A DNA stretch of 64,000 nt, taken from NCBI GenBank assembly GCA_003138355.1, contig PLFX01000043.1:117848-181847 (forward strand), read 5' to 3'. Below, one piece after another: positions 1 through 49,945 of the stretch. The DNA is from Solirubrobacterales bacterium. Its GTDB lineage: Bacteria; Actinomycetota; Thermoleophilia; Solirubrobacterales; Solirubrobacteraceae. Every line of letters starts with the position of its first letter. Positions within the stretch are counted from its first letter, which is position 1. Both the position numbers and the translations under genes were made by a program. Under the pieces are notes generated by a model, which saw only the letters and a list, made by a program, of their open reading frames with translations, was not told where the DNA came from and made no database searches.

Positions 1-1
1 G

Positions 2-1363
2 GCGACCTGGCTCCTCGGCCTTCACACCAAGATCGCTCACCGGCTCAAACTCAATCTCTACGAGGTGGCCGATTCGGCAGAGTCGGGGGTCATTTTCGAG
101 GTCATGAATAACCGAGGCCGACCACTTTCGGACCTGGATCTCGTGAAGAACTACGTTCTCTACCTGGGGACGAAGCTGGATCTCGAGGTTGCGACAAACC
201 TTCTCGTAGATGACGTCGCATCAGCTTGGGCAAAGATCTTCACGAACCTCACGAACGCTGAACTCGACGATTCCGAGTACGAGAACCAACTTCTCCGCAC
301 GCACTGGCTCGTCGGCTACGACTCGGACGCCCGGGAGTGGCACGGACGCAAGTCGGTCAAGGACTATTTCGCGCTGCGCGCGTATGAGGACCAGCACGAC
401 GAGTTGCTAGCCGGTCTACGCGCGTTCGTGCAGACGCTGGCCGACACGTCGCTGGCCTACGCCGACATTCACCGCCCGATCCGCGACGGAGCGTTTCAGG
501 AATACGCCGGTCAACCCAAGATCCGTGCTGAGATCGTGGAGCTCAGCGACTGCCTCGTGCGGCTCGAGCACGTCGCACCTTTCAGGCCGCTACTTGTCGC
601 GACGAGGCTCCGACTCGGCGGCGACGCCCAGAAGTATCTGGAAGTACTGCGTCTCTGCGAAATCTACGCTTTCAGGATCTACGGACTCTTCGAGAAGCGC
701 TCGAACACAGGACAGTCGACCCTGTTCTCGCTTGCCGGGAAGCTCTGGGATGAGGAGCTGAGCTTCGAAGAGTTGCTGCGCCAGTTCGCTGGAACGCTGC
801 TCTCCTATGTCAGCCAGAAGGACTTTCTTGCGGCGTGGGATATGCCAGAGCTCGGCGAGGACCCCGACGAATGGTACGGCTGGCGCGGTTGCAAGTACCT
901 CCTTTTCGAGTACGAACGGCACTTCGTCGGGCAGGATGATCTAGGAACCAGGTGGTCAGCGAAGCTAAAGGCGGACCGTCAAAAAACGATCGAGCACATC
1001 CTCCCGCAGACCCCTGATGATCCGTACTGGGTTAAGCACTTCACGTCCGAGGAGGTCGAGCATTACGGGCACAGCCTGGGGAACCTCTGCCTGACGGAGG
1101 ACAACAGCAGCTACGGCAAGAGGTCCTTCACTGAAAAGCGCGGGACTCCTGGGCAAACGACGCCGTGCTACGCGAATGCGCCGCTCAAGAGCGAGCGCGA
1201 GCTCGCGCAGTACGACCAGTGGGGGCCCGCCGAGGTCCTTGAGCGTCGCGCCGAGCTGGTGGCTTGGGCTATCGAACGCTGGGCGCTGCCGGTCGGACTT
1301 GAAGCGGTCGAGCCAACGTCGGTCAAGTCTGCCGACGACGAGCTTGTCGAGGAAGTCGTCTGA
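2..1363 (+). CDS. GmrSD-like (DUF262/DUF1524) restriction protein, 5' end outside the window
   Basis: The frame is open from the first complete codon, so the gene begins upstream; the GTG at 65 is probably internal. The visible N-terminal part has IFEVMNNRGRPLSDLDLVKN, typical of the end of a DUF262 (GmrS-like) domain. The C-terminal part has the DUF1524 His-Me/HNH-like motif TIEHILPQ, with its histidine at about codon 311 counted from 65, followed by HSLGNLCLTEDNSSYGKRSF. Proteins with this pair of domains are modification-dependent (type IV) restriction enzymes that use NTP hydrolysis to cut modified phage DNA. The N-terminal nucleotide-binding motif lies outside the window and cannot be checked. 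The next gene follows after 21 bases on the same strand, suggesting an operon. Confidence 0.85.
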   Translation, partial: ATWLLGLHTKIAHRLKLNLYEVADSAESGVIFEVMNNRGRPLSDLDLVKNYVLYLGTKLDLEVATNLLVDDVASAWAKIFTNLTNAELDDSEYENQLLRTHWLVGYDSDAREWHGRKSVKDYFALRAYEDQHDELLAGLRAFVQTLADTSLAYADIHRPIRDGAFQEYAGQPKIRAEIVELSDCLVRLEHVAPFRPLLVATRLRLGGDAQKYLEVLRLCEIYAFRIYGLFEKRSNTGQSTLFSLAGKLWDEELSFEELLRQFAGTLLSYVSQKDFLAAWDMPELGEDPDEWYGWRGCKYLLFEYERHFVGQDDLGTRWSAKLKADRQKTIEHILPQTPDDPYWVKHFTSEEVEHYGHSLGNLCLTEDNSSYGKRSFTEKRGTPGQTTPCYANAPLKSERELAQYDQWGPAEVLERRAELVAWAIERWALPVGLEAVEPTSVKSADDELVEEVV

Positions 1364-1384
1364 ACCCGGGCGCCCGGTGATCGC

Positions 1385-2266
1385 ATGCCCACGCTTGACC
1401 CAGATTTTGAGGAGGCATCCTTCGCGGGCGCAGCCAACGCCGAACTCGGCCGTGACCGCGGTCGCTGGTTCACCCCAGGGCAAGTGGAGGAGGCGATTCT
1501 TGGGTACGACGCATCGACCGTGCCCGGCGATACGGCGCGTGCCGTCCTGCGGCGAGTAGCCGGGATCGAGCTCGGGCCCGGCGTATGGCTAACCCCGAAT
1601 TGGTGGCTCAGGTGTGCCGCCCGTCCGGAAGGCAGCCTGCTCCAAAGTCGATTCGCGAGTCTTCTTCTGCAGTACAAGCGCCCGACGATGCAATACGGGG
1701 CCTCGGCACCGCTCATGGAGCGATACGGCGCGCCCTACTTCCGGTTCGCGTTCACGCCAAAACAGCACAGAACCCTCGTCCGGCTGGACGAGGCACTGCT
1801 TGATGAAGCGGTAGTGCGCTACGCCAGTCCATGCACATGCCACAGGAAACAGGTCGAGCAATGGCAGATGGATCGCAGCGTGCTCGAGAACACGAACTTT
1901 GTGTCGCCACGCCGAATCGGACTCAAGCATCGTGCCTGGACATACCTCTTGCCCGGAGCCGTTGGATACCGAAACCGCTTCTCGTCCGACGACGACGCGA
2001 TCCCAAGCGATTCTGACGCTTCGCTCTTCGCGCAGCTTGTCGACGGCGCAAGGGCACTAGCCCTAGACCGGCACGTATCCCAACTGCTACGGCTGTTGGC
2101 CGGGGAAGCTGCCGACACTGCCGTCGACGAAACGATTGCTGAACTCGAAGTCAGCGAAATCGACACACCACGAGCGCAAGCGATCGCCACTGTCGCTCGA
2201 CTGCTGCTCGTCGGTGTTGAGCTGCAGGACTCGGGCGTGTCATGGTGGTTGCTCGAAGCTCGATGA
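1385..2266 (+). CDS. Uncharacterised defence-island protein with possible Q-x-K nuclease motif
   Basis: A 293-residue protein starting at an ATG 21 bases after the GmrSD-like gene. I do not recognise a named family. Seen directly: a WFTPGQVEEAIL segment near the N-terminus that may be a winged-helix-like module, then SRFASLLLQYKRPTMQYG with Q96-Y-K98, FRFAFTPKQHRTLVRL, and a conserved-looking NFVSPRRIGLKHRAWTYL. A Q-x-K preceded by acidic residues can be the core of a PD-(D/E)XK nuclease, but that is only inference. There is no signal peptide or membrane segment. Position and strand suggest co-expression with the restriction gene, as a partner subunit or a separate anti-phage effector. Confidence 0.7.
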   Translation: MPTLDPDFEEASFAGAANAELGRDRGRWFTPGQVEEAILGYDASTVPGDTARAVLRRVAGIELGPGVWLTPNWWLRCAARPEGSLLQSRFASLLLQYKRPTMQYGASAPLMERYGAPYFRFAFTPKQHRTLVRLDEALLDEAVVRYASPCTCHRKQVEQWQMDRSVLENTNFVSPRRIGLKHRAWTYLLPGAVGYRNRFSSDDDAIPSDSDASLFAQLVDGARALALDRHVSQLLRLLAGEAADTAVDETIAELEVSEIDTPRAQAIATVARLLLVGVELQDSGVSWWLLEAR

Positions 2267-2521
2267 CGCTCGCCCTCGTGCCGGAGCGAGCGTCCGCACG
2301 AAGCCGCGTGCGCGATTCCGTCCAGCACCGCTCACGACGCAAGAAACAGGCCGCGCAGCGCGGGCCCACCTGCTGAGCCGCGCACGGCGCCCGCTGTGCG
2401 GGCGTGCTGGCTCGGTGAGCTACTGATTCGTGGCTGCTGTCTTGCTCGCCGGTCCGTGCGATCTGCTCGTAGGCTTCTCGGCATGTGGCGCGGACCGGCA
2501 CGGCCGTGATGTAGTTGGGAG

Positions 2522-3982
2522 ATGTCCGTCGGGCCTGACCTACGCGAGCAGCTTGAACGCTTGGATGCGTTGGGTGCAGCCGCGCGCGGCCGCGCGGCTG
2601 AGGTCTTGCTTCGTGCGCTGCTCCGACGCGGGCACATAACCGTGCATTCGGATGCTGGCATTGCGCGGCCTCGGCGCACTGACCTCTTTGCGTACACGGA
2701 GCGCCACCAGTACCTGGTTGAGGTCAAAGCGCGTGGCACGAAGGCAAACATCAGCGATCTCGATGGCTTGCGGGCGAGACTCGATCGATGCCCCAGCGGC
2801 GTTGTCGGAGTGCTTGTGTCTCTCGCGGGATTCACGCAGCCGGCCGTGCAGGCCGTCGCCGAGCATCGGAGCCAACCGATCCTGTTGCTCGGTCGACACG
2901 AGCTCGAGAGCCTTGCGGAGGACGTCGAAGACATGCGCGCGCTGCTGGACCGCAAACTCAGCGCGCTTACGCGCGATGGCAAAGTGGACCTCGCGCGGGA
3001 ACCAATCGACCAGATCCGCCGCTACCCAGGGGCGCGCCCCGAGGACATGTTCTTGGCCGAGTTAGACGGTCAGCGGCTGGATTGGTTTACAAGCGGCGGC
3101 GACTTCGGCGTGTTCACCTTCGTTCAGGCCGTGACCGACCCAACTTGGGGTCCTGGCCCCGAGACCTCGACGATGGTGCATATGCCGGTGCACGTTGGTT
3201 CGCAGACCCGAATCCTGGAGATCCTCGCCGGCCTCGATGAGGCCGGATGGTCGAGCAACATGGGACGCTGGTGCATCCAGCAATCGAATGTCAACTGGCA
3301 CGGTGCCGGCACGCGGACCCTGCGCGGAGCGCTCGAACGGTGGGACGAGCGTTACGCCGGCTGCGAGGGGCTGCACTATCGCGAGGAGGTGTGCTACGCC
3401 GACTCTTTCAATGACGGCTTCTACACGCTGACGTTCGACGTAGCCGCCGACGCGACGCGGCAGATCTGGTACACAGACGTGTCGGTCGAACTCGCCGGCA
3501 TACCGCTCGACCGGCAGCCGCTTCAGGCGCTCGCCGAGATACTCGGCGTGCGCGAGCCGCTGTACCTCCGAGTACGAGACCATCCGGTGCTTGAACGCTG
3601 CAGTCTGCGCGAACTCGATCTCAATCCGATCGCACCGACGGCGTACGTCGTCGCCGAAGACGAAAGAGCAGATGGCGCCCATTACTCGGTAATGGGTGTG
3701 GTTCTCGCCAACCCGTGGAGAAACGTTGCGTTGCCCGTGGAGCTTCCCAGGCAATTGCAAGATTCGCATTACCTGATCTGCGATCTCGCCGACTGGCACC
3801 CGCTGGTCGACAAGCTGTCCGCGTACAAAGTTGTCTCTGCGGAATGGGGCTGGACCTCCGCCGGCGCAGTGATCCGCGTCCGCGCGGATTGGGCCGACGA
3901 GGAGTACGAGCGGAAGCTAGACAAACGCTACGCCAATGGGCCCAGACGAGACGACGCCGCTGACAGCTTCCCGCTGGAGTGA
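2522..3982 (+). CDS. Probable restriction-endonuclease-like protein, PD-(D/E)XK N-terminus and unknown C-terminal domain
   Basis: A 486-residue soluble protein. Residues about 15-125 look like a Mrr/PD-(D/E)XK fold: a helix, then RRTDLFAY with D54, and YLVEVKARG with E67-x-K69, the expected D...ExK spacing. Residues about 150-486 hold an unrecognised region rich in Trp and Tyr, for example GRWCIQQSNVNWHGAG and YRVMGVV-like strands, which may be a sensor or substrate-binding part. It starts at ATG 2522, 255 bases after the previous gene, so it may have its own promoter. It ends 59 bases before the convergent end of the large NTPase gene. It could be a solitary nuclease or the effector of a system with its neighbours. 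Confidence 0.7.
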   Translation: MSVGPDLREQLERLDALGAAARGRAAEVLLRALLRRGHITVHSDAGIARPRRTDLFAYTERHQYLVEVKARGTKANISDLDGLRARLDRCPSGVVGVLVSLAGFTQPAVQAVAEHRSQPILLLGRHELESLAEDVEDMRALLDRKLSALTRDGKVDLAREPIDQIRRYPGARPEDMFLAELDGQRLDWFTSGGDFGVFTFVQAVTDPTWGPGPETSTMVHMPVHVGSQTRILEILAGLDEAGWSSNMGRWCIQQSNVNWHGAGTRTLRGALERWDERYAGCEGLHYREEVCYADSFNDGFYTLTFDVAADATRQIWYTDVSVELAGIPLDRQPLQALAEILGVREPLYLRVRDHPVLERCSLRELDLNPIAPTAYVVAEDERADGAHYSVMGVVLANPWRNVALPVELPRQLQDSHYLICDLADWHPLVDKLSAYKVVSAEWGWTSAGAVIRVRADWADEEYERKLDKRYANGPRRDDAADSFPLE

Positions 3983-4041
3983 CGGGCGATCGTCGACAAC
4001 AACCAGGCAACGATGCGAGACGCGCCAGTCACACCACAGCG

Positions 4042-7000
4042 CTACTCCGAGTAGGGTGCGAGCGTCCGATTACCCGCCACCACGAGGCCATCGACTACGT
4101 TCTGCCACGTGGTTTGACTGCCGGCGTCTGCGGCAGCCGACCGGATATCCGTGAGCCATCTCGAGATCAGGTAGCTCCCACGTGCGATCGCGTCGGCGTG
4201 GTCAAGGACAAGCATCGCCACCCGCGGGAGTCCGAAGGAAGCCTGCTCGTGCTCCGGAAGCGCGCGCACGAGCCCAATGAGCGAATCGACACAGTCCGGC
4301 TCCCCGACGGCCAGCGGGATCCACGCATCGATCTCGCTTGCCCATGCGCGTGGATCTGGCCAGATAATCGGGTTCGCTCCGACCTCCCAGAACAGATACT
4401 CGACCTCCTGGATCGGCGTGGGCATCAGCTCTCGCAACGCTCCAGTTCCGTAGCGCCGGTCGTGTAACGGCTGATGGCCTTGCGCGTTCAGTTCGAGAAC
4501 CTGCGAGATCACTTCGGGCCAGACCCGGCGCGCTGCGTTCGCCGTCTCCTGCCGCTCCTCAGCTGCGGCGTTTAGCGCTCTGAGCATCCCGGTCAGATGC
4601 GTGCTTTCGTCCGCGTACGCCTCGATCGTCTCGTGCAGAGGTGCATCGTCACCGGCGCCTGCCACGTCGAGAAGCGCACGCGCCGCGATCAGAGCATGAG
4701 TGCCCCGGTGGTCGTAGAGATCGTCCTGCGCCAGTAGGCCACGGCGTTGCGCGTGGAGTAGGCGCGGGAGGAGCGCCGCGGCTTCCTCCCGCACGCAGCT
4801 CGGCCGGGCCGCGGCCCTACCACACGCCCGGATTGCGGCGTCGAGCTTCGGGAACAAAAGATCATCGTCTGGGACACGGTCGAGTTCCGTTGCGATGGGA
4901 TCCGGCACTCGCCCCACATGTCGACGTTGGCCCGCAACGTCCCAGGCACCGAGAACGCAATCCCGCATCGACTCGGTAGCGATCTCGAGCGCGAGCGAAT
5001 GGTGGCACGGAGCCTCCGCGCTGCACGGAGCACTCCAGATCACATCCAGGCCACGAGCGAGGTGCAGGCGCGTCTCGTCGGCCACGGCCTGCGCGAGACG
5101 CTTGCATGCGTCCGCCACCCGTGACAGGCTCGCTGCGCCTTCGGCGTCAAGGAGGCCGCGTAGAGGCGCTGCCTGCGGCAATAGAAGAAGCGGCAAAGCA
5201 CGACCGGCCGCACGATCTGGGCCCTGCTCGAAGTAGCTGCCCTCGAACTCGAACGCATCGGGGACCGATTGCGCGGCCGCAGACATCAGAGCGTTCACGA
5301 CGAAGGATGCGGCCGACGGTGTGAGCGCCTCACCGTGCAGAACGACCATCTCGACGGCGTGGGCCGCTATCGCCGTGGCCATATCTACAACCGGGGTCGC
5401 GGAGTTCGTCGGAGGATCGTTGACGAGGGCTTCGGCCAGCGCGAGATCGTGCGCGAGCGCCTCGCCCACGGGCGGAGGTGCCTTCTCCCGCCCGCGCGCG
5501 CCGCCGGCGAAGTAACGCCACTGAATCCGGGTTACCTCCTGCCCGCGCTGAAGATCTTCGGCGCCTGGTTGCAGCGACGCCTCAACATCCTCCGGCGCGC
5601 GACTTTGCACGTACGTCGTGTCCCCTTCGGCGTGCACCTCGTAGCTGCCCTGATCGAGCGCGCTCGCCCACGCTCGCGCAAGCGTGCTCAGAGATGGGCC
5701 GGCGTCGGGCTCGATGGATTCGGCTGCGCCTTCCTCCTCCGATGCGTCCGGTTCCGCCTCCAGCTCCCTCGCATGCTCCACCAGCCGGTCGCCAATGGCA
5801 CGCAGGGCCGCCGCCCGTTCAGGACTCGCGGTGACGGTCAGCCAGGATGCAGCCTCGCGACACGACCACGACCGGCGCTCGGGTGCGACCAGGCCCTCGG
5901 AGCTCGCCGCCAGCAGGCTTGCCTCGTGCACAACGCGGACGAACTCCAGGCGCCACACGAGCGGCTCCGCCAAAAAGGGATCGAGCGACGTGCCGGCACG
6001 TTCAATGTGGCGCACGACAAGCCCCACAACGAGGCCCGGCATCGCCAGGTTCTCGCACCCATCCAGCAGAAGTGCCGCGAGGCGATCGGGAGCCGCTCCG
6101 TTGGACAGGAGCTGGTCACACACCCGCTCCAGCGCGCGCAGCGCACTCACGCAAGGAGGCGGACCCACGGCAGATCCGCGATACCAACGCCACACATGGT
6201 CATCGCCGAAGTACGCGCGCGGTGCTCCGGTCAGCCGAAGGGTGATCCCGAGCCCATAGACATCGTTGTCATCAACCTGGCGCCACGGGTTGCCAACTGC
6301 CACCATTGTGCGAACCCGCGCCCGTGCTGCGTGATTCAGCAGCCGGTTCAACACGGCGATACCCCGCCGCAAGTCGCTCTGAAATAGGAACGCGAACGGT
6401 CCCTTCCACGGGCCAGACAACGGCGCCACCGACCCGCGAGCGCGGTGGTCGCGCACGCCGTCGTCGTGGAGACCAAACCGGCCGTCGGCTTCGTCGATGT
6501 AGTAAGCCTCCACCAAATCAGCCAACAGACCGTGGCCGTAGCTCGCCAAAGCGCGACCGGTACCGAGCTCTTCCACTGCCGGAGCCAGTTCCCCTGGAGC
6601 CTCCGAAGCCACCTGCCTGAGAAGCCGCTCCCCGTCGTCACCCAAATCTGGCCCAAGCAGCGCAAGCAATTCGACCACGATCTCTTCGCGTAACTCGCGC
6701 GCGAGCTGAGGGGCACGCCGCCTCCGCGTGCGCGCACCGAGAACGCCACGCAAGGCATCGCGTCGCGCGGCGTTGTGCTGCTCCTCTTCAGACGGCTCGA
6801 CAGCCTCCGCGCTTTGCGCTGCAGTCTCGAGGTGTTGTCGTTGGAGGAAATCAGCCTGGGCGCTATCACATGCCCCCACCAAGCTCTCGCGCAGACGGAT
6901 CCGCAGGGGATCCCCACTCTGCCTGTCCCGCACAACCAGGGCAAGCAGCCATTCGCGAAGCAGTCGCCCGGTCTCAGCGTCCTCCCACGGCGTCTCGTCA

Positions 7001-9255
7001 TTCAGGACCAGGGAAACAATCGGCTCGACGACGACGGGATCCACGAACGCGTCCACCCGGTGCCGTTGGTCCACCAAACGAAGCAGCCGACCCAGACCAG
7101 CGCTGTCACCCTGATGCAGACCCGCCCACGCTTCCGCGAGGACTGGCGCAGGATCGCCAAGCGTAAGGAGCGCTTCCGAGGGCACGTCACCCCACCGGGC
7201 TCCGTGTCCGGCGGCCACGAGCGCGTCGAACGCCTCCTGCTGCCGCCCGAGCCGGCCGTGCAACGGCTCGTCGGAGCTATCCGGCTGCGATAGCACCGCC
7301 TGCGACGCAAGGCGCGCGGCTGGTAGCGCCCAGCGCGGAGCGTCCGCAGCAAGAAGCGTCGCGACGGGATCCCCGTCGGCCAGCAGGGCGCGGGCCACCG
7401 CGTAGCGCCGCACCTCGTCGTGGGCGAAGTCTGGGACGAGCTGCCACGGCCTGCTGACCGACGCTCGTAACAACCCGTCCTGCCGCAGGCCGTCGATGGC
7501 GCCAGCGTCCAGCTCGGCTGCCAACTCGACAGCTGATCCTCGCGAAAGCTCTCGCAAGGCCAGACGGACAAGCACATGCTCGCGTGCATCTGGAAGGCCG
7601 CGATCCCGCTTCTCGTGCCGGCGCACGAGACCGGCCCAGACTTGGCGCATCGCGTCAACGTCGCTCATCGGGAGCCCACTCGGCTCACTCCGTACGAGAA
7701 GGTCAACCACGACCAGACGTCTGAGTAGCTCGCGAGACCGCTCGTTTGCGCCTAACCGGGCGAGCTGAGGGAACGCGACGATGACCTCGTCGAGTTCAGT
7801 GTCGTTGAGGCCGCCGACGGTGTATGGCGCGACGTCGTCTGTTCCAATTCTCTGCGAGACGATGTCGCGAACCACTTGGCTGGCTTCGCTGGTGCTCACA
7901 GCGATAACGCAAACACCGGCCGTATGCGCTGCGTCTACCACGTACGAGAACACGTCGGAGCGCGACTCCGTCGCTGCGTCAGCGCCATCCACCACCAAGA
8001 GCCGGAGCGGTGCGCTCATCTCGGAAAGGACGTCTGCAAGCGAACTACCCAACACCGACACCAGGTCCAGAGGCCGCTCGGGAAGATGTCGGAGGTTGAG
8101 GGAGACGACGCCTGCATCGCCGGCTTCGTCTGCTTCGGCGGCAGCTCGCAATACCAGCGAGCTCTTCCCCACGCCGGACTCGCCGTCCACGACCAGCGCG
8201 CGAGCATTTGCGGTCGCCGCGATAATGGCCTCCGCGCTTGCGGTGCGGTCCACGCGAAAGGCGCTCGCTCCAACCGGTCGGATCTCGTCTCGGACCGCCG
8301 CTCGCGCCTCCTGCTGCAGGTGCTCCAGCAGAAGCCACGCGCGGGTATGTCGCCGCTGGCCGGGTTCGAGAAGCGAATGAACCTCGCGACGGAGCGATGA
8401 GAGATCAACGACGGCGGCGGCCGGACCGTACTGGCCCGCAAGCACCTCAAGACGGTCGAGGAGGTGGTGCGCCGCGCCAAGATCGCGCCCGCGAGCGACC
8501 GCCGCCAGTCGGTTCTGTGCGTGGATCCAATCTGTTGTGTCCGGCTCCTCGACCCGAGGCGTAAGCACCCACAGACGGCGCAGGAGCCGCCACGTCATTC
8601 CGCGCCCGCCATCAGCGATCACCATCTCCACTGGATGAGGCGCTGCGCTCACGAGCGCGCTCAAGTGTTCAAGTCGATTGACCAGACCTTGCGCAAAGCG
8701 TCCGGGCTCCGAGAGCAGCTCGAAGAAGGCCAGCGCGTCGACCTGGGTACGGGCATGCGCGCACAACTCGGAGAGCTGCTCGGCGTGGGTATTGCGGCCG
8801 GCCACAACCAGAGCCAGCCGGTGCTCGCGGTTGTCATCCGGCGCATCGACAAGGGCTTGGACGTACTGTCCGAACAGCGTCTGCGCGTCGCCGTTGCTGC
8901 GTACGAGATTTGGCCGCCGCCGAATGCCGATTGCCAGCTCGACGCTTGGCTCAGTCTCGCCGGGCCGCGACACCGTTACGACGAGGTCGTCGACGGATAC
9001 GCGTGGCGCCTGCTGAAAGGCCACTGAGACGATTGCACCGTCGTCTCCAAGTTCTGGCGAGGTATCGCCGGTCAGGAGCTGCGCAAGGTAGAGCGCTCCG
9101 ATTCTGCGCTCGAGCGTAACCCCGCCACCACCGGTCGAATACGGGCTTGAGGCCTCGCCTGAGCGTGAGCCGGACGGCCGCTCGCGGCCGTCCGCTTGGT
9201 TGCCCGCGCCGTCGCTTTCCGGTGCCTCTGCGACGTCAGCGTCGTTGTTGTTCAT
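4042..9255 (-). CDS. Giant STAND-like P-loop NTPase, putative defence protein (1737 aa)
   Basis: A single uninterrupted 1737-residue reading frame. After a low-complexity N-terminus, residues about 44-140 (GGGVTLERRIGALYLAQLL ... VDDLVVTV ... VELAIGIRRRPNL) resemble the DUF4297/Cap4-type dsDNA endonuclease region, but the usual catalytic (E/Q)xK is replaced by AIGIRRR, so activity is doubtful. An NTPase module follows: Walker A GESGVGKSS (K364), Walker B LRLLVVDGADA (D423), and a C-terminal FAHDEVRRYAVAR box (H612), as in STAND ATPases. The remaining 1100 residues are helix-rich, without clear repeats, and could be a target-recognition platform. No transmembrane segment is evident. Avs-type and related STAND proteins sense phage products and activate a nuclease; that this protein does so is inference. 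It is convergent with the nuclease gene at 2522. Confidence 0.75.
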   Translation of the reverse strand: MNNNDADVAEAPESDGAGNQADGRERPSGSRSGEASSPYSTGGGGVTLERRIGALYLAQLLTGDTSPELGDDGAIVSVAFQQAPRVSVDDLVVTVSRPGETEPSVELAIGIRRRPNLVRSNGDAQTLFGQYVQALVDAPDDNREHRLALVVAGRNTHAEQLSELCAHARTQVDALAFFELLSEPGRFAQGLVNRLEHLSALVSAAPHPVEMVIADGGRGMTWRLLRRLWVLTPRVEEPDTTDWIHAQNRLAAVARGRDLGAAHHLLDRLEVLAGQYGPAAAVVDLSSLRREVHSLLEPGQRRHTRAWLLLEHLQQEARAAVRDEIRPVGASAFRVDRTASAEAIIAATANARALVVDGESGVGKSSLVLRAAAEADEAGDAGVVSLNLRHLPERPLDLVSVLGSSLADVLSEMSAPLRLLVVDGADAATESRSDVFSYVVDAAHTAGVCVIAVSTSEASQVVRDIVSQRIGTDDVAPYTVGGLNDTELDEVIVAFPQLARLGANERSRELLRRLVVVDLLVRSEPSGLPMSDVDAMRQVWAGLVRRHEKRDRGLPDAREHVLVRLALRELSRGSAVELAAELDAGAIDGLRQDGLLRASVSRPWQLVPDFAHDEVRRYAVARALLADGDPVATLLAADAPRWALPAARLASQAVLSQPDSSDEPLHGRLGRQQEAFDALVAAGHGARWGDVPSEALLTLGDPAPVLAEAWAGLHQGDSAGLGRLLRLVDQRHRVDAFVDPVVVEPIVSLVLNDETPWEDAETGRLLREWLLALVVRDRQSGDPLRIRLRESLVGACDSAQADFLQRQHLETAAQSAEAVEPSEEEQHNAARRDALRGVLGARTRRRRAPQLARELREEIVVELLALLGPDLGDDGERLLRQVASEAPGELAPAVEELGTGRALASYGHGLLADLVEAYYIDEADGRFGLHDDGVRDHRARGSVAPLSGPWKGPFAFLFQSDLRRGIAVLNRLLNHAARARVRTMVAVGNPWRQVDDNDVYGLGITLRLTGAPRAYFGDDHVWRWYRGSAVGPPPCVSALRALERVCDQLLSNGAAPDRLAALLLDGCENLAMPGLVVGLVVRHIERAGTSLDPFLAEPLVWRLEFVRVVHEASLLAASSEGLVAPERRSWSCREAASWLTVTASPERAAALRAIGDRLVEHARELEAEPDASEEEGAAESIEPDAGPSLSTLARAWASALDQGSYEVHAEGDTTYVQSRAPEDVEASLQPGAEDLQRGQEVTRIQWRYFAGGARGREKAPPPVGEALAHDLALAEALVNDPPTNSATPVVDMATAIAAHAVEMVVLHGEALTPSAASFVVNALMSAAAQSVPDAFEFEGSYFEQGPDRAAGRALPLLLLPQAAPLRGLLDAEGAASLSRVADACKRLAQAVADETRLHLARGLDVIWSAPCSAEAPCHHSLALEIATESMRDCVLGAWDVAGQRRHVGRVPDPIATELDRVPDDDLLFPKLDAAIRACGRAAARPSCVREEAAALLPRLLHAQRRGLLAQDDLYDHRGTHALIAARALLDVAGAGDDAPLHETIEAYADESTHLTGMLRALNAAAEERQETANAARRVWPEVISQVLELNAQGHQPLHDRRYGTGALRELMPTPIQEVEYLFWEVGANPIIWPDPRAWASEIDAWIPLAVGEPDCVDSLIGLVRALPEHEQASFGLPRVAMLVLDHADAIARGSYLISRWLTDIRSAAADAGSQTTWQNVVDGLVVAGNRTLAPYSE

Positions 9256-9367
9256 ACCCTAGTCACGGACCAATAGTGCCAGTGGATCTGGCTGCAAAGC
9301 GTGGCGCCTGACAGCATGGCTCACAAGGGCCATGGCCGCGTCTGACGAGCGCGAGTTGCGGTCCTGC

Positions 9368-9952
9368 TCAAGGAGCGGTCTGGAGTGCTCGCTCGATCGC
9401 GCGGTACACGGTCGACCGGGCGACGCCGAAAAGTTCGGAGAGCTCACCGGGGGTCTTCTCCCCCGCTTCGTGCAGAGCCGCGAGGTGCGCCTCTGTCGCC
9501 CGGCTGAGCTTTGGCTGACGCCCGCGCAGCTTGCCGGCCGCCCGGGCGGCCGCCATCCCCTCCCGGGTCCGTGCGCGGATCAGGTCGCTCTCGAACTCAG
9601 CGATCATCGCAAGCATGTTGAACAGCAGGCGACCGACGGGATCGGTCGGGTCGTGGACTGACCCGCCGAGATTGAGCTTGACTTGACGCTCGGTCAGCTC
9701 GTCGGCGATGTCGCGCGCGTCCGGTAGCGAACGCGCGAGCCGGTCCAGCTTCGTGACCACGAGCGTGTCGCCCGCACGGCACGCCGCTAGCGCCTCACGC
9801 AAGCCGGGGCGCTCACGGTTCGTGCCGGTCAAGCCGTGGTCGACGTAGATCCGCTCACGCGCCACGCCGAGCGCTTCGAGCGCCTCCCGCTGCGCGGTCA
9901 GGTCCTGCTCCTGGGTGGACACACGCGCGTAGCCGATGCTCAGACCGGGCAC
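9368..9952 (-). CDS. Serine recombinase / resolvase, Pin-Hin family
   Basis: A complete 194-residue small serine recombinase. The catalytic N-terminal domain starts with IGYARVSTQEQDL, where S12 is the expected nucleophile, and continues with TGTNRERPGLREAL, VTKLDRLARS and AMIAEFESDLIRARTREGM. A C-terminal helix-turn-helix follows (EKTPGELSELFGVARSTVYRAIERAL). Such enzymes invert or resolve DNA segments, or are carried by Tn3-type transposons and plasmids. No transposase or obvious pair of inverted terminal repeats was found next to it. It lies 112 bases beyond the start of the giant NTPase gene on the same strand and marks the right side of the defence-like island. Confidence 0.93.
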   Translation of the reverse strand: MPGLSIGYARVSTQEQDLTAQREALEALGVARERIYVDHGLTGTNRERPGLREALAACRAGDTLVVTKLDRLARSLPDARDIADELTERQVKLNLGGSVHDPTDPVGRLLFNMLAMIAEFESDLIRARTREGMAAARAAGKLRGRQPKLSRATEAHLAALHEAGEKTPGELSELFGVARSTVYRAIERALQTAP

Positions 9953-10267
9953 ACGGACAGTGTCCCAGCTGAGGCGCCATTGCGGGATTCCAATTCGGAC
10001 GGGCTTATCGGGACGATCGACCTCCCGGGATCATTGGCTCGCGCCCGCCGCCGTGACGAGGTAGATGGCGTCCCGGCAGCCGTTCCCTGCCGGGACGATT
10101 GCGTAGACCCTCTCGGTTGTGACCGGCACCGTCGCATCGCTACCGCATTGGCCTACAAGAGACAAGGCCGCCGGTACACACGGGAGTTCGTCCACGATGC
10201 TCCGATGGTGGGCACGTGGAAGCAGGCGCCGGCATCGACGGCACCGAGCGACTTAGCAATCGGAGAC
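9953..10267. other. Gene-free stretch upstream of the recombinase
   Basis: These 315 bases hold only reading frames that lack a ribosome binding site and read as Arg-rich noise. The stretch presumably contains the recombinase promoter. I see no strong hairpin, tRNA or repeat in it. It separates the defence-like island from the GC-richer chromosomal block and could contain the crossover site of the recombinase, but no matching partner site was identified. Confidence 0.5.
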
Positions 10268-10969
10268 TCAGTTAGCCCAGTGCGCGAGGATGGGCTCTGA
10301 CTGGCGCGGCTTGACGATCTCCCCTGTCCCCTCGGGGTCCCAGGGCCGTGGGAGGCAGAGGCGGTCGCGCCAGTGGTGCGGGCAGACGTAGGGGTTCCAG
10401 GTGCTTGTGCGGAGCGCGACGCGCGCGTAGCGAAAGGTGAACGGGACGCGGCCGATGCGCGCGCCGGCGAGCTCGCCCGTTTCGACGAGCGCGAAGGAGC
10501 GCGGCAGGTGCGTGGGACGCGACATGACCTCGTTGCACCACAGCCGCCACCAGTCCTCGTAGTCCTCGACGAGGCCGTCGTCGACGTAGACGTGCTCGCG
10601 GAAGAGCTCGACGCCGCGCCGGCGCGTCTCCCAGTGCCAGCTCGGGGCGGCGCCGACGATCCAGCCGCTGCTGAGCTTGTGCTCGGCGATCGCGGCGGCG
10701 AGCTTTGCGATGTCCCAGGCGCAGCCGGCGAGGCCGTCCCCGGAGATGCACCACTGGAGCTCGATCCCGATCTCGCCCTCCAGTACGAGGTCGAGCGGGG
10801 CGATCGCGGGCCAGTGCTTGAGCGTCAGTGGCGCGTTCGCCGTCCCCGCTGCCTCGGCGAGCGCGGCGATGACGTCGGCCTCCGACAGCTCGGTCGCGCG
10901 CTTTGCGCTCGCGGCGCGATCGAGTGCGGGAAGCGCGCGTTCGAGCAGTTCCCGTGGCGTTCCTACCAC
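10268..10969 (-). CDS. Hypothetical protein, 233 aa
   Basis: A GTG start at 10969 gives a 233-residue soluble protein whose composition is protein-like (TLKHWPAIAPLDLVLEGEI, SSGWIVGAAPSWHWETRR, HVYVDDGLVEDYEDWWRLW). I do not recognise the family. The centre, with conserved-looking Glu/Gln on a strand (GEIGIELQW) and then helix AWDIAKLAAAIAEHKL, could fit a nuclease-like or restriction-associated fold, but no clear motif is complete. It lies 105 bases from the next gene on the same strand and has no obvious operon partner. Moderate confidence that it is a gene; no function is assigned. Confidence 0.6.
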   Translation of the reverse strand: MVGTPRELLERALPALDRAASAKRATELSEADVIAALAEAAGTANAPLTLKHWPAIAPLDLVLEGEIGIELQWCISGDGLAGCAWDIAKLAAAIAEHKLSSGWIVGAAPSWHWETRRRGVELFREHVYVDDGLVEDYEDWWRLWCNEVMSRPTHLPRSFALVETGELAGARIGRVPFTFRYARVALRTSTWNPYVCPHHWRDRLCLPRPWDPEGTGEIVKPRQSEPILAHWAN

Positions 10970-11074
10970 GCGAGTCAGCGTACTACGGGCGCTTCGCGGC
11001 GCCAGCGGGTGCCGGCGCAGATCCCGCTAGTTCCAGGGATCTGTGTGGGGATCCTCGGCCGAGCGACGATGCGA

Positions 11075-41279: not shown

Positions 41280-42001
41280 TTACCGTCCTCCGTATTGTCG
41301 AACTCCGTCGCCGCGCCCCGCGCGCGCAGGTCTGCGCGCCGGATCGCGGGATCGGCCGTTAGCCTGACGAGACTCGCCAACGCGAGCGGCAGGCCGATCA
41401 GAGCGAGCGCCGGGTCGGCGAGCAGCAGGAACACAACCGCCGCAGACTCCGCCGCCAGCAACGGGCTCGTCCAGAACAGGTTGCGCACTGCGAGCGAGAC
41501 CGACCAATACCAAAGATCGGTTACCGCCAGATCCGTTCGCCTTGCGCCGAGCACCAGGACATAGCCGAAGCTCGCAAGCGATAGCAGCAGGGCATCCACC
41601 CCAAGCCCCAGGCACACCCAGTTGACCGCGCTGCCGCCACGCGAGAAGAAATGCACCTCTTCGAGCGCCAGTACTGCCGCGGCTAGCGGGCCACCAGCAG
41701 CCAGCGACGTGTGAAGGAACGGCCTTGATCGCAGCGCCGCAACGTACTCGCGCACGACACGATCCTCGCCTTCGCCGCGCCACCGATCGAGCGCGACGAC
41801 CGCCGCCTGGAACGCCGCCGGAACCGTGACGATCGGCAGGCAGGTAACGAGCAACGCAAGGTTGAGGGCGAGGCAATTGAAGATCGCGCTCAGCACCGCC
41901 ATCACCCGCAGCCTCGGGTCGGCGCGCGATGGCGCCGCCTCGCGCGAGTGCCGCGTCGCGGCGGACGCCTCGCCCAGGTTCGCATACGAGAGGAATCCCA
42001 T
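41273..42001 (-). CDS. YesL-like (DUF624) membrane protein
   Basis: A 242-residue protein with about five predicted membrane helices. The N-terminal part (LRVMAVLSAIFNCLALNLAL, LLVTCLPIVTVPAAFQAAVV) and RWRGEGEDRVVREYVAALRS match the YesL/DUF624 family, commonly found inside sugar ABC operons. Its ATG overlaps the stop of the upstream permease gene by one base, and its end overlaps the ATPase start, so it is expressed with the transporter. Its role in uptake is not established; it may assist complex assembly or act as an accessory membrane component. Confidence 0.85.
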   Translation of the reverse strand: MGFLSYANLGEASAATRHSREAAPSRADPRLRVMAVLSAIFNCLALNLALLVTCLPIVTVPAAFQAAVVALDRWRGEGEDRVVREYVAALRSRPFLHTSLAAGGPLAAAVLALEEVHFFSRGGSAVNWVCLGLGVDALLLSLASFGYVLVLGARRTDLAVTDLWYWSVSLAVRNLFWTSPLLAAESAAVVFLLLADPALALIGLPLALASLVRLTADPAIRRADLRARGAATEFDNTEDGKW

Positions 42002-42861
42002 CAGCCCTTCTCCCCTGTGCCCTGGATCGCGATGCCCTTGAGGAAGGTGCGTTGGGTGAAAAAGAACAAGATCACAATCGGCATGGTTGCCGCCGTGGCC
42101 GCCGCCATCACCCATGGCCAGTTGGTGGTGTAGGTCCCCAAGATGAGCGTCAGTCCGAGGGAGACCGGATACCACGACTGGCTCTGGATATAGATGAGCG
42201 GACCGAGGTAGTCGTTCCAGCAGTACACGAACTGAAACAGAATTACCGTCGCGAGCGCCGGCTTCGACATCGGCAGGATCACGCGCCGATAAATCGTGAA
42301 TTCGTTTGCTCCGTCCACTCTCGCAGCGTCGGAGACCGACTGCGGCAGGGTCATGAAGAACTGGCGCAGTAGGAAAGTGCTGAAGATTGAGCTGCCAAGG
42401 AAAGTCGGGACAATTAGCGGCCAGTACCACCCGACCATGTGAAAGTTCTTGTACATCACGAACAGCGGAATCAGCGTCGCGAAGAACGGAATGAGCAGCG
42501 TGCTCACCATCACCTTGAACACGAAGTCGCGACCCTTCCAGCGAATACGCGAGAAGCCATAGGCGACGAGGCTGCTGGAGATGCACACCCCGGCGATCGT
42601 GGAAGCCGCGTACATGAGCGTATTCAGCACGAAGCGAGGGAATGACACGGCAGAGATCACATTCGGGTAGTTGCTCCAGAGGAACGGGTGCGGAATCCAG
42701 ACCGGCGGATCCGCAAGCGCCTGGGGGTTGGTCTTCAACGACGTCAATGCCATCCACAGCAGTGGAAAGCCGAGCACCACGCTGACCAGGATGAGCACGA
42801 CGTGCTTGCCCGTGCTCGTGACGAGCTTGTGGCGAGTCCTGCTGTCGATGGCCACTCTCAT
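42001..42861 (-). CDS. Sugar ABC transporter permease, MalG/UgpE type
   Basis: A 286-residue permease with six predicted helices starting MRVAIDSRTRHKLVTSTGKH. The EAA coupling loop is SVSDAARVDGANEFTIYRRV, followed by ILPMSKPALATVILFQFVYC and WNDYLGPLIYI, typical of the second permease of CUT1 systems. Its start overlaps the stop of the first permease by four bases (ATGA) and its end overlaps the YesL-like gene by one base. Together they form the channel for an oligosaccharide. Confidence 0.95.
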   Translation of the reverse strand: MRVAIDSRTRHKLVTSTGKHVVLILVSVVLGFPLLWMALTSLKTNPQALADPPVWIPHPFLWSNYPNVISAVSFPRFVLNTLMYAASTIAGVCISSSLVAYGFSRIRWKGRDFVFKVMVSTLLIPFFATLIPLFVMYKNFHMVGWYWPLIVPTFLGSSIFSTFLLRQFFMTLPQSVSDAARVDGANEFTIYRRVILPMSKPALATVILFQFVYCWNDYLGPLIYIQSQSWYPVSLGLTLILGTYTTNWPWVMAAATAATMPIVILFFFTQRTFLKGIAIQGTGEKG

Positions 42862-43823
42862 CCTTCGCTCGCGTAATACACCCAGCGTGACGAGGTCCGG
42901 AACAGCACAACCATGACGATCGCGCTGATCACGAACAAGAAGAAGGCCATCGCCGAGGAGTAGCCAAGCTTGAGGTACTGGAAAGCCTGCACGTAGAGGT
43001 ACTGCACGTACATCCACGTCGAGGTCCCGGGACCGCCAAGGTCCGAGCCCTCGATCACCTGGACCTGTGTGAAATACGCGAAGCAAGCCACGAGCTGGAG
43101 GATTACGTTGAAGAGGATCACCGGACTGAGCATCGGGAGCGTGATGCGGCGGAAGCGCTTCCAGGCGCGCGCACCGTCGAGAGCGGCGACCTCGTACAGC
43201 TCGCTCGGAATGCTTTGGAGCCCGGCCAGGTAGATGACCATCGGCTGGCCGACGCCCCAGAGTCCGAGCAGGATGAATGAGGGCTTGGACCAGGCCGGGG
43301 AGAAGAACCACCCCGGTCCCTGAATATGCACGTTGTTCAGCAGGTCGTTGACGATCCCGGTCGCCGGATTGAAGATCCAGACGAAGATCAAGCACGACGC
43401 GACGAGCGGCACAATCGAGGGGATGTAGAAGATCGTGCGATAGATCGCCCTCCCCTTCACGTCCTGGTTGAGCAGGAGCGCGAGGCCGAGTGCAACCACG
43501 GTCGAGAGCGGCAGCTCGAATATGGTGTAGAAAAAGGTATTGAAGAGTGACGTAAAGAAGAGCGGATCGTGGAACAGGGCCGTGTAGTTGGCGAACCCGA
43601 TCCACTGCGGCGACTGAACGCCGTTGAAATTGGTGAAGCTGTAGTAGATCGTGGCGAAGAACGGGTAGGCAAAGAAGGCCAGGAACCCGATCACCCACGG
43701 GCTCACGAAGAGCAGGCCTGTTCTCAAGCGGCGACGCGAATACCGAGGACGCTGCAGCCCACCGCGCGTGGCCGCCGTCTGCGGCGCCGCTTCCGTGGTT
43801 GCATGTGCCGACACGCCGGACAT
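42858..43823 (-). CDS. Sugar ABC transporter permease, MalF/UgpA type
   Basis: A 321-residue permease with six helices. The N-terminus (RTGLLFVSPWVIGFLAFFAY, PFFATIYYSFTNFNGVQSPQ) and the EAA loop (SIPSELYEVAALDGARAWKR, FRRITLPMLSPVILFNVILQ) define the first permease of CUT1 carbohydrate transporters. It lies 190 bases downstream of the solute-binding gene, with two strong hairpins in the gap, and overlaps the second permease by four bases. Confidence 0.95.
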   Translation of the reverse strand: MSGVSAHATTEAAPQTAATRGGLQRPRYSRRRLRTGLLFVSPWVIGFLAFFAYPFFATIYYSFTNFNGVQSPQWIGFANYTALFHDPLFFTSLFNTFFYTIFELPLSTVVALGLALLLNQDVKGRAIYRTIFYIPSIVPLVASCLIFVWIFNPATGIVNDLLNNVHIQGPGWFFSPAWSKPSFILLGLWGVGQPMVIYLAGLQSIPSELYEVAALDGARAWKRFRRITLPMLSPVILFNVILQLVACFAYFTQVQVIEGSDLGGPGTSTWMYVQYLYVQAFQYLKLGYSSAMAFFLFVISAIVMVVLFRTSSRWVYYASEG

Positions 43824-43843
43824 TCTCCCTAACCGCGCGGACT

Positions 43844-43867
43844 GGGGCAGGGCTCTCGCCCTGCCCC
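43844..43867. terminator. 10-bp stem-loop in the binding-protein/permease gap (first)
   Basis: GGGGCAGGGC and GCCCTGCCCC form a perfect 10-bp stem with loop TCTC. It lies in the mRNA between the solute-binding and permease genes. A hairpin here typically protects the upstream message or reduces transcription into the permease genes; there is no T run. Confidence 0.65.
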
Positions 43868-43910
43868 CCTCTGCGTGTCTTGGTCGGTGAATCCTCTCCC
43901 TGCCGCGTAG

Positions 43911-43938
43911 GGGGGGCAGGGCGCTTGCCCTGTCCCCC
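43911..43938. terminator. Second stem-loop in the binding-protein/permease gap
   Basis: CAGGGC/GCCCTG around loop GCTT, continued by GGGGG/CCCCC with one bulged base, gives a second very strong hairpin 44 bases from the first. Two tandem hairpins of related sequence suggest a partial terminator or mRNA-stabilising element that raises binding protein over permease. Confidence 0.6.
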
Positions 43939-44013
43939 CTGCCGCGAACCTTGAACGGCTGGCCATCTTGGTTGGCTACTTGTCGATGGCCTCGAGCGCC
44001 TGGAGAGGCTTCG

Positions 44014-49708: not shown

Positions 49709-49792
49709 TGCGGGCGGAGGGACTTGAACCCCCAAGGGCTTTCGCCCACCGGCTCCTAAGGCCGGCGTGTCTACCAATTCCACCACGCCCGC
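49709..49792 (-). tRNA. tRNA-Leu (UAG)
   Basis: On the minus strand a class II tRNA folds: acceptor GCGGGCG/CGCCCGC with discriminator A, D arm GTGGTGGAATTGGTAGACACG, anticodon stem CCGGC/GCCGG with loop CTTAGGA (anticodon UAG), a long variable arm (TGGGCGAAAGCCCTT) and T stem GGGGG/TCCCT-type pairing around TTCAAGT. The 3' CCA is not encoded. Length 84 nt. Confidence 0.93.
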
Positions 49793-49834: not shown

Positions 49835-49918
49835 GCCCGGGTGCCCAAATTGGTAAAGGGAGCGGTCTCAAGAACCGCCGCTGGAAACAGCTTGGGGGTT
49901 CGAGTCCCCCCCCGGGTA
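49835..49918 (+). tRNA. tRNA-Leu (CAA)
   Basis: A class II tRNA on the plus strand: acceptor GCCCGGG/CCCGGGT (one G-T pair), anticodon stem GCGGT/ACCGC with loop CTCAAGA (anticodon CAA), long variable arm CGCTGGAAACAGCTT and T stem GGGGG/CCCCC around TTCGAGT, discriminator A. No encoded CCA. It is divergent from the tRNA-Leu(UAG) gene 42 bases away. Confidence 0.93.
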
Positions 49919-49945
49919 CTTGTGCGCTCGCGGCGCGCGGCGGCT

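Follow-up and report, generated by a model that had tools for sequence, protein, structure and literature searches.

The beginning of the analyzed DNA probably belongs to a defence island, with mutually independent restriction-type genes next to an Avs4-like receptor, whose front domain, a predicted dead nuclease, would act by binding DNA or a partner. The DNA is a stretch of 64,000 nucleotides, called the window hereafter, from contig C46 of a 2.76-Mb draft genome of a Solirubrobacterales bacterium. Genes 1 to 3 are separate restriction-type nucleases, i.e. a GmrSD, a putative QxK nuclease and a Mrr-like nuclease. As a cluster the cassette is unremarkable, and the part of interest is the dead, swappable front of gene 4. 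The features are located as follows (coordinates in the window):

2..1363, plus strand: gene 1, the 3' part (453 aa, running off the window edge) of a modification-dependent restriction gene of the GmrSD type
1385..2266, plus strand: gene 2, 293 aa, putative PD-(D/E)XK nuclease with E36, D42 and Q96-x-K98
2522..3982, plus strand: gene 3, 486 aa, Mrr-like nuclease domain and a C-terminal part of about 330 aa
4042..9255, minus strand: gene 4, Avs4-like STAND NTPase of 1737 aa
4045..6645, minus strand: C-terminal helical-repeat region of gene 4 (residues ~871-1737), from Foldseek, VIA and hhalign comparison to Avs4
6175..6192, minus strand: W-x-x-Y-R-G motif (residues 1022-1027), common to the gene-4 family and Avs4
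6832..8358, minus strand: NTPase and helical arm of gene 4 (residues 300-808), from fold comparison and hhalign
8161-8184, minus strand: Walker A of gene 4, GESGVGKS (residues 358-365)
8356..9153, minus strand: N-terminal domain of gene 4 (residues ~35-300), PD-(D/E)XK-like with a predicted degenerate active site, from motif alignment
8917..8937, minus strand: residues 107-113, LAIGIRR, at the place of the missing Q-x-K (G110, R112), from motif alignment
8986..8991, minus strand: D89-D90 of the degenerate nuclease site, DD in 26 of 26 rows
9368..9952, minus strand: serine recombinase of the resolvase/invertase type (Pfam Resolvase, 4.9e-43)

An ORF check of the window recovered all four open reading frames where the preliminary description of this DNA had placed them. 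The first, which it called GmrSD-like, is indeed the end of an intact gene of 637 aa (L002:13298-15211) starting 551 bases ahead of the window, whose first base is L002:13849. The full protein passes the Pfam thresholds for both GmrSD_N (E 1.5e-33, 117 bits, cut-off 33.2) and GmrSD_C (E 3.8e-17, 62.9 bits, cut-off 23). A Mrr-type gene of 280 aa (Mrr_cat, E 3e-25) is located 73 bases ahead of GmrSD, outside the window, and further out before the window are an IS110 transposase and a RES/Xre-like pair. At L002:9157-9663 and L002:9534-10304 a RES toxin domain gene stands beside one that weakly matches an Xre/MbcA/ParS antitoxin, and L002:7227-9092, also before the window, encodes a protein of 621 aa matching TCAD9, response-regulator and kinase-like APH models. 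The Mrr gene, GmrSD, gene 2 and gene 3 share one direction and gene 4 is convergent to them, with 59 bases between the end of gene 3 and that of gene 4. G+C content is about 60-69% across the stretch of these genes and the DNA preceding the window, against 70-72% at 12-18 kb of the window, a lowering that would fit acquired DNA. Elsewhere, G+C goes down to 60.5% at window positions 42001-44000, a second possible acquired stretch, and a pair of tRNA-Leu genes (anticodons tag and caa) occupies 49709-49792 and 49835-49919 on opposite strands, with 42 bases between them.

The serine recombinase said to close the cassette is real; it precedes gene 4, whose strand it shares, and lies beyond the end that had been given for the cassette. 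Mobile DNA often carries serine recombinase genes. We also weighed, and set aside, a cassette that is invertible or bounded by transposons: the inverted repeats at positions 1-11000 are short and imperfect. Another serine recombinase (L076:12815-13396) follows, at about 520 bases, the gene of a Polaromonas sister protein of gene 4 (L076, see below), and the two recombinases share 33% identity over 135 aa.

Neither the Pfam, PADLOC and NCBIfam models (E <= 1) nor the sequences of the PDB (E <= 10) yielded a match to gene 2. The sole homologue found is carried by a Vibrio coralliilyticus plasmid (E 4e-11, 24% identical). It keeps E36, D42 and the possible Q-x-K motif already pointed out in the preliminary description (Q96-Y97-K98), a conservation which makes a PD-(D/E)XK nuclease likely for gene 2 on sequence grounds. 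A caspase-domain gene (L026:6400-7833) lies near this Vibrio homologue. The D...ExK motif proposed for gene 3 is also borne out: it reads D54...E67-V-K69, with D54, E67 and K69 invariant in 4 aligned rows, and falls in the region of a weak Mrr_cat match (E 0.0038, 17.8 bits, below the Pfam cut-off of 21). The C-terminal part of about 330 aa extends beyond it, and is additional with respect to Mrr. Homologues of gene 3 on Streptomyces plasmids are annotated as "restriction endonuclease", and its single match in the PDB sequence search is a tRNA methyltransferase at E 0.2. Likeness to the type IV restriction enzymes GmrSD and Mrr is thus seen in gene 1, in the gene preceding GmrSD and, with its weak match, in gene 3. 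Single-protein scans of viral contigs gave no relatives of genes 2, 3 and 4, nor did an alignment scan for gene 2, and no relatives of genes 2 and 3 were seen in phage records.

The preliminary description hesitated between one undescribed system made of genes 2-4 and several single-gene systems parked together; the distribution of homologues fits the second. A survey of 296 genomes from the phylum detected gene 2 in at least 1, gene 3 in at least 2 and gene 4 in at least 6 (the window's own genome included, some of the others partial), and no genome except the window's own has more than one of the three. In a second set, 295 genomes from a single genus (by inference Streptomyces), gene 3 is present in at least 8 and a match to the NTPase part of gene 4 in at least 13 (3 of these 13 at E > 3e-4), with no overlap between the two groups of holders. 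Genome counts are lower bounds, since few candidates were scored per genome. A tblastn search of 24 gene-4-type loci (two front-domain-only loci and one sister protein included), 10 gene-3 loci and one gene-2 locus recovered neither another gene of the set nor anything related to the GmrSD or Mrr of the window. Of the 10 gene-3 loci, however, 9 gave back gene 3 (L064 did not), and several loci have short flanks, so the absence of co-occurrence is evidence within the sample; it is the outcome that the preliminary description had named in advance as counting against its proposal.

One could still imagine that genes 2-4, or 1-4, constitute a single undescribed system in which the nucleases are the effectors of a dead-front receptor, given that the genes are together in the window and that only 21 bases separate genes 1 and 2. 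We consider this very unlikely: genes 2, 3 and 4 are never found together in the loci and genomes just described, their own excepted, and gene 4 is oriented against the others. The same hypothesis can also call on loci L004 and L006, where the gene-4 homologue comes after a type I restriction-modification operon, which indicates that active nucleases do adjoin other dead-front receptors. However, of the other loci among the 24, only L006 carries a relative of the HsdR found in L004, and at 90% identity the two represent one case. Restriction-modification genes occur within 10 kb of 5 of the 19 gene-4 relatives (L004, L006, L005, L019 and L021), a count made on part of the neighbours and in which L004 and L006 are not independent; this makes a tie between gene 4 and restriction-modification no more than a lead.

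The convergent P-loop NTPase of 1737 residues announced in the preliminary description was confirmed. G358, G363, K364, S365 and D423 are invariant in 10 rows, i.e. Walker A and Walker B are both there. Near full-length relatives, at about 45-48% identity, come from Pseudomonadales, Nitrospinae and Alphaproteobacteria records; a Chloroflexi relative is more distant (32%) and one further record is a fragment. Relatives are also found on plasmids of Streptomyces, Rhodococcus and Embleya. Two AlphaFold models were computed, one of residues 1-820 (6 sequences, mean pLDDT 66.5, low confidence over the front) and one of residues 855-1737 (7 sequences, mean pLDDT 72.9). For both halves the top fold match is Avs4 (AVAST type 4), known from a structure with the PhiV-1 portal bound (PDB 8dgf).

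Fold comparison of the first model covers residues 300-774 and hardly probes the front. Over residues ~300-800, VIA gave Z 16.0 with Avs4 (8dgf_B, 461 aligned, rmsd 16.3), 15.8 with the NACHT of NLRP3 (381 aligned, rmsd 4.2) and 14.9 with NLRC4 (421 aligned, rmsd 4.7), so that a NACHT/STAND-type NTPase fold with a helical arm is present in gene 4. Foldseek placed Avs4 first (E 1.4e-8) and NLRC4 next (4.5e-7), and hhalign related the NTPase part to Avs4 with probability 99.3 and E 2.7e-20. Profile scans revealed no other enzymatic domain in gene 4. For the second model Avs4 stands out more: its Foldseek E-value is 4.4e-12 against 1.2e-4 for the next entry, and its VIA Z is 19.4 (725 aligned, rmsd 9.6, model 17-883 to Avs4 700-1584) against 12.9 for the next, where a shared arrangement of helical repeats can by itself give about 13.

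This relationship was also seen with profiles. Seventeen family members (L050 and L056, which are near copies, the fragment L058, L009 and L068 being omitted) were compared by hhalign with four Avs4-type proteins from plasmid records, two annotated as Avs4 (E. coli) and two as hypothetical (Calothrix and Hymenobacter). The alignment runs over residues 302-1732 (probability 99.4, E 1.7e-21), and the C-terminal part alone remains collinear with Avs4 (probability 94.8, E 4.9e-8), while one reversed and five column-shuffled controls of this C-terminal comparison gave E 0.51-0.87. The exact W-x-x-YRG motif is present in 17 of 17 family rows, in 4 of 4 Avs4 rows, at the aligned place in E. coli Avs4, and in none of 5 sister rows, for a chance expectation of 0.02 per shuffled protein; the sister L076 has W-F-R-G at that place. 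A family profile of residues 945-1090 matches all 9 sister and Avs4 proteins (whole-protein E 3e-15 to 0.0012 in this nine-protein set). Against PDB sequences the whole-family profile reached Avs4 at E 0.012; the C-terminal profile did not reach it at E <= 10, and the C-terminal link to Avs4 consequently rests on profile-profile and fold comparison.

By profile alignment and predicted fold, residues ~302-1732 of gene 4 are distantly related to Avs4: the NTPase, the arm and the helical repeats of the C-terminal region are collinear, and both are single large genes. "Avs4-like" denotes likeness only, as gene 4 departs from Avs4 in its front and passes no curated Avs4 model. Identity in the fold alignments is only 11-14%, and the front of gene 4, predicted dead, is unrelated to that of Avs4 by hhalign (probability 0, E 0.9). 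Gene 4 has no PADLOC match at E <= 1, and the NCBIfam Avs4 model (NF041815) gave it E 0.0077 and 13.4 bits, far from the cut-off of 1500. The PADLOC Avs4 profile, run over 246 genomes, left the window's own genome unmatched and gave 5 weak matches in NTPase parts; relatives with other fronts match that model weakly (L054 at E 0.0014, L057 at 0.048, L055 at 0.09). The preliminary description had considered that its genes might each belong to an already characterised system; gene 4 does come close to one, Avs4, which it had not named.

The front domain (residues 35-300) carries the motif series TGGGG...E...D89-D90 followed by LAIGIRR at the Q-x-K place. After removal of repeats (L013, L018 and L036-L040), the 26 alignment rows amount to 18 distinct copies plus L070, a sister protein. 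Each of the 18 distinct copies has G, A or S at position 110 and R at position 112, and D89-D90 is kept in all 19 distinct loci (L070 included). By comparison, Q-x-K is kept in the five sister proteins examined, L070 and L076-L079 (the latter from Polaromonas, Rhizobium and two Streptomyces). Thirteen other matches of L070 were obtained: L076-L079 were retained as sisters, five are family members already counted, and H25, H30, H34 and H35 were left out. The sisters have the same architecture as gene 4 from front to C-terminus (hhalign E 5.8e-92; E 9.5e-24 for the fronts), and differ from it by the retained Q-x-K and by the absence of the exact W-x-x-YRG. Their motif order, TGGxG...DD...QxK, resembles that of the Cap4 nuclease of CBASS.

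The preliminary description had spoken of a Cap4-like front. What holds is the motif order and, at low confidence, the order of the elements predicted by the first model (helix 44-62, strands 74-82, 89-96 and 104-106, helix 122-137, strand 147-150), since helix-strand-strand-strand-helix-strand would agree with a PD-(D/E)XK core. Beyond this the likeness to Cap4 finds no support: at E <= 1 none of 14 front domains is hit by a Pfam or PADLOC Cap4 model, and the catalytic Q/E-x-K has become G/A/S-x-R. Among the same 14 domains, one matches the PADLOC candidate PDC-M54A at 7.4e-6 (sister L070 does so at 1.2e-9) and one matches Pfam NA-iREase3 at E 0.022, a value which counts for little because an unrelated family scored 0.0055 in the same scan. 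A PDB sequence search with the front gave weak matches only (ryanodine receptor and "Gene 1 protein", best E 0.67). Two other settings of the degenerate domain are a fusion with a beta-propeller, in L066, and a protein of 564 aa, L067, that weakly matches an ATPase. In L019, L049 and L050 an extra winged-helix-like stretch precedes the dead front (MarR_2/HTH_IclR match in 1 of 10 rows), and its sequence would fit DNA binding.

PD-(D/E)XK enzymes tolerate moved or replaced residues, so that "dead" is here a prediction. Gene 4 could then be an ordinary Avs4-like receptor whose front still cuts DNA through an altered site, with R112 in the role of the lysine and some other side chain in that of the glutamine. 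The constancy of D89-D90 in all rows and of R112 in 18 of 18 distinct copies is in line with this, as it indicates a site under constraint, with no free drift, and passages of PMC12931631 ascribe the use of nuclease activity to Avs1-4. Against it, Q110 and K112 are jointly replaced in all 18 copies and both kept in the 5 sisters read, and the residues found at position 110 (G, A or S) offer neither an acidic nor an amide group. We judge a cutting front unlikely; no DNA cleavage is expected of this domain, which most likely works through binding.

The fronts of the relatives are not all of one kind. Twenty ORFs, the window's included, are distributed as follows: 14 have the degenerate front, 3 a trypsin-like domain, 2 have no front, and 1 is a fragment (L058). 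The trypsin-like domain, with its H/D/S motif set, replaces the front in L022, L054 and L057, and a Trypco2 gene adjoins L022 and L057. In L055 and its near copy L056, which have no front, a phosphorylase-family gene is located directly upstream (PNP_UDP_1, scanned in L055). The protease part of L054 matches PADLOC Avs1b at 2.4e-7. Neighbouring reading frames of L057 resemble a Cas5-type gene and a stretch of CRISPR-like repeats.

L022, with its trypsin-like domain, and L051, with a dead front, form a closely similar pair: the remaining 1406 residues are 91% identical. They are also sisters (100/100) in a tree of 26 proteins built by maximum likelihood, and this placement, together with the identity, indicates that both fronts occupy the same slot. 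The window's protein falls inside a group of 7 dead-front proteins (100/100). The three trypsin rows stand in three separate parts of the tree, requiring three changes and showing no clustering relative to shuffles; the slot has thus changed hands more than once. The tree program flagged uneven composition, and long branches where Avs4 meets the two remotest sisters, which leaves the deep branching order uncertain.

According to passages of PMC12799240, trypsin-like fronts are known from Avs1 and other systems. Avs1-type systems resemble L022, L054 and L057 in having such a domain ahead of a STAND protein; their partner, in the same passages, is an upstream MBL-fold pro-nuclease, whereas Trypco2 stands beside L022 and L057, and the window's gene 4 has no protease. 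These passages also describe, in Hachiman, protease-fused HamA domains without the nuclease motif. There too a defence nuclease domain has been retained after loss of its catalytic motif; the difference is that the dead domain and the protease coexist in one protein, whereas here each replaces the other.

The swaps bear on a further reading, in which the front would be a sensor, of nucleotide or nucleic acid, and the effector function would lie elsewhere in gene 4. Sensing is proposed, in passages of PMC12839542, for inactive restriction-endonuclease domains paired with NTPases in other families, and both the beta-propeller fusion of L066 and, for what little it counts, the NA-iREase3 match would suit it. 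A protease in the same slot, in L022, L054 and L057, points rather to an effector slot, and gene 4 offers no other recognised enzymatic domain to which the effector function could be assigned. A sensor front appears quite unlikely. Dead HamA and the proposed inactive restriction-endonuclease sensors do provide precedents for keeping a dead nuclease.

The preferred reading, that of independent restriction-type genes beside a stand-alone Avs4-like receptor acting through a binding front, would operate as follows. In the resting cell the gene 4 protein would be autoinhibited and nucleotide-bound. Its C-terminal region would bind a phage protein, possibly the portal, which for gene 4 is an analogy with Avs4, and ATP-dependent oligomerisation would then gather the front domains. 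These might hold phage or host DNA, or recruit an effector in trans, possibly one of the neighbouring restriction enzymes, and the infection would be blocked or the infected cell would die. Recruitment in trans is made less likely by the neighbourhoods of the dead-front proteins, in which no conserved partner gene was seen. More tentatively, and with somewhat less confidence than for the window itself, we propose that gene 4 belongs to a cross-phylum Avs4-like clade with a dead-nuclease effector, working, with no built-in enzyme, by DNA clamping upon oligomerisation or by in-trans hand-over, whose slot has repeatedly been refilled by a protease. We found no description of a dead-front Avs4-like family in the open-licence PubMed Central literature, although this does not establish that it is new.

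In bacteria, Avs proteins are the counterparts of NLR immune receptors. If the clade is as proposed, Avs4-type receptors would extend to members in Actinomycetota, Pseudomonadota, Nitrospinae and Chloroflexi (by record names), gene 4 itself being unrecognised by the PADLOC and NCBIfam models used. Avs1-4 are described, in passages of PMC12931631, as causing cell death through nuclease activity; in a clade which has the sensor and a dead nuclease-like domain, sensing and oligomerisation would be separable from cutting, and the question is raised of what activation achieves when the effector is unable to cut. The L022/L051 pair, protease versus dead nuclease on the same sensor, constitutes a natural experiment.
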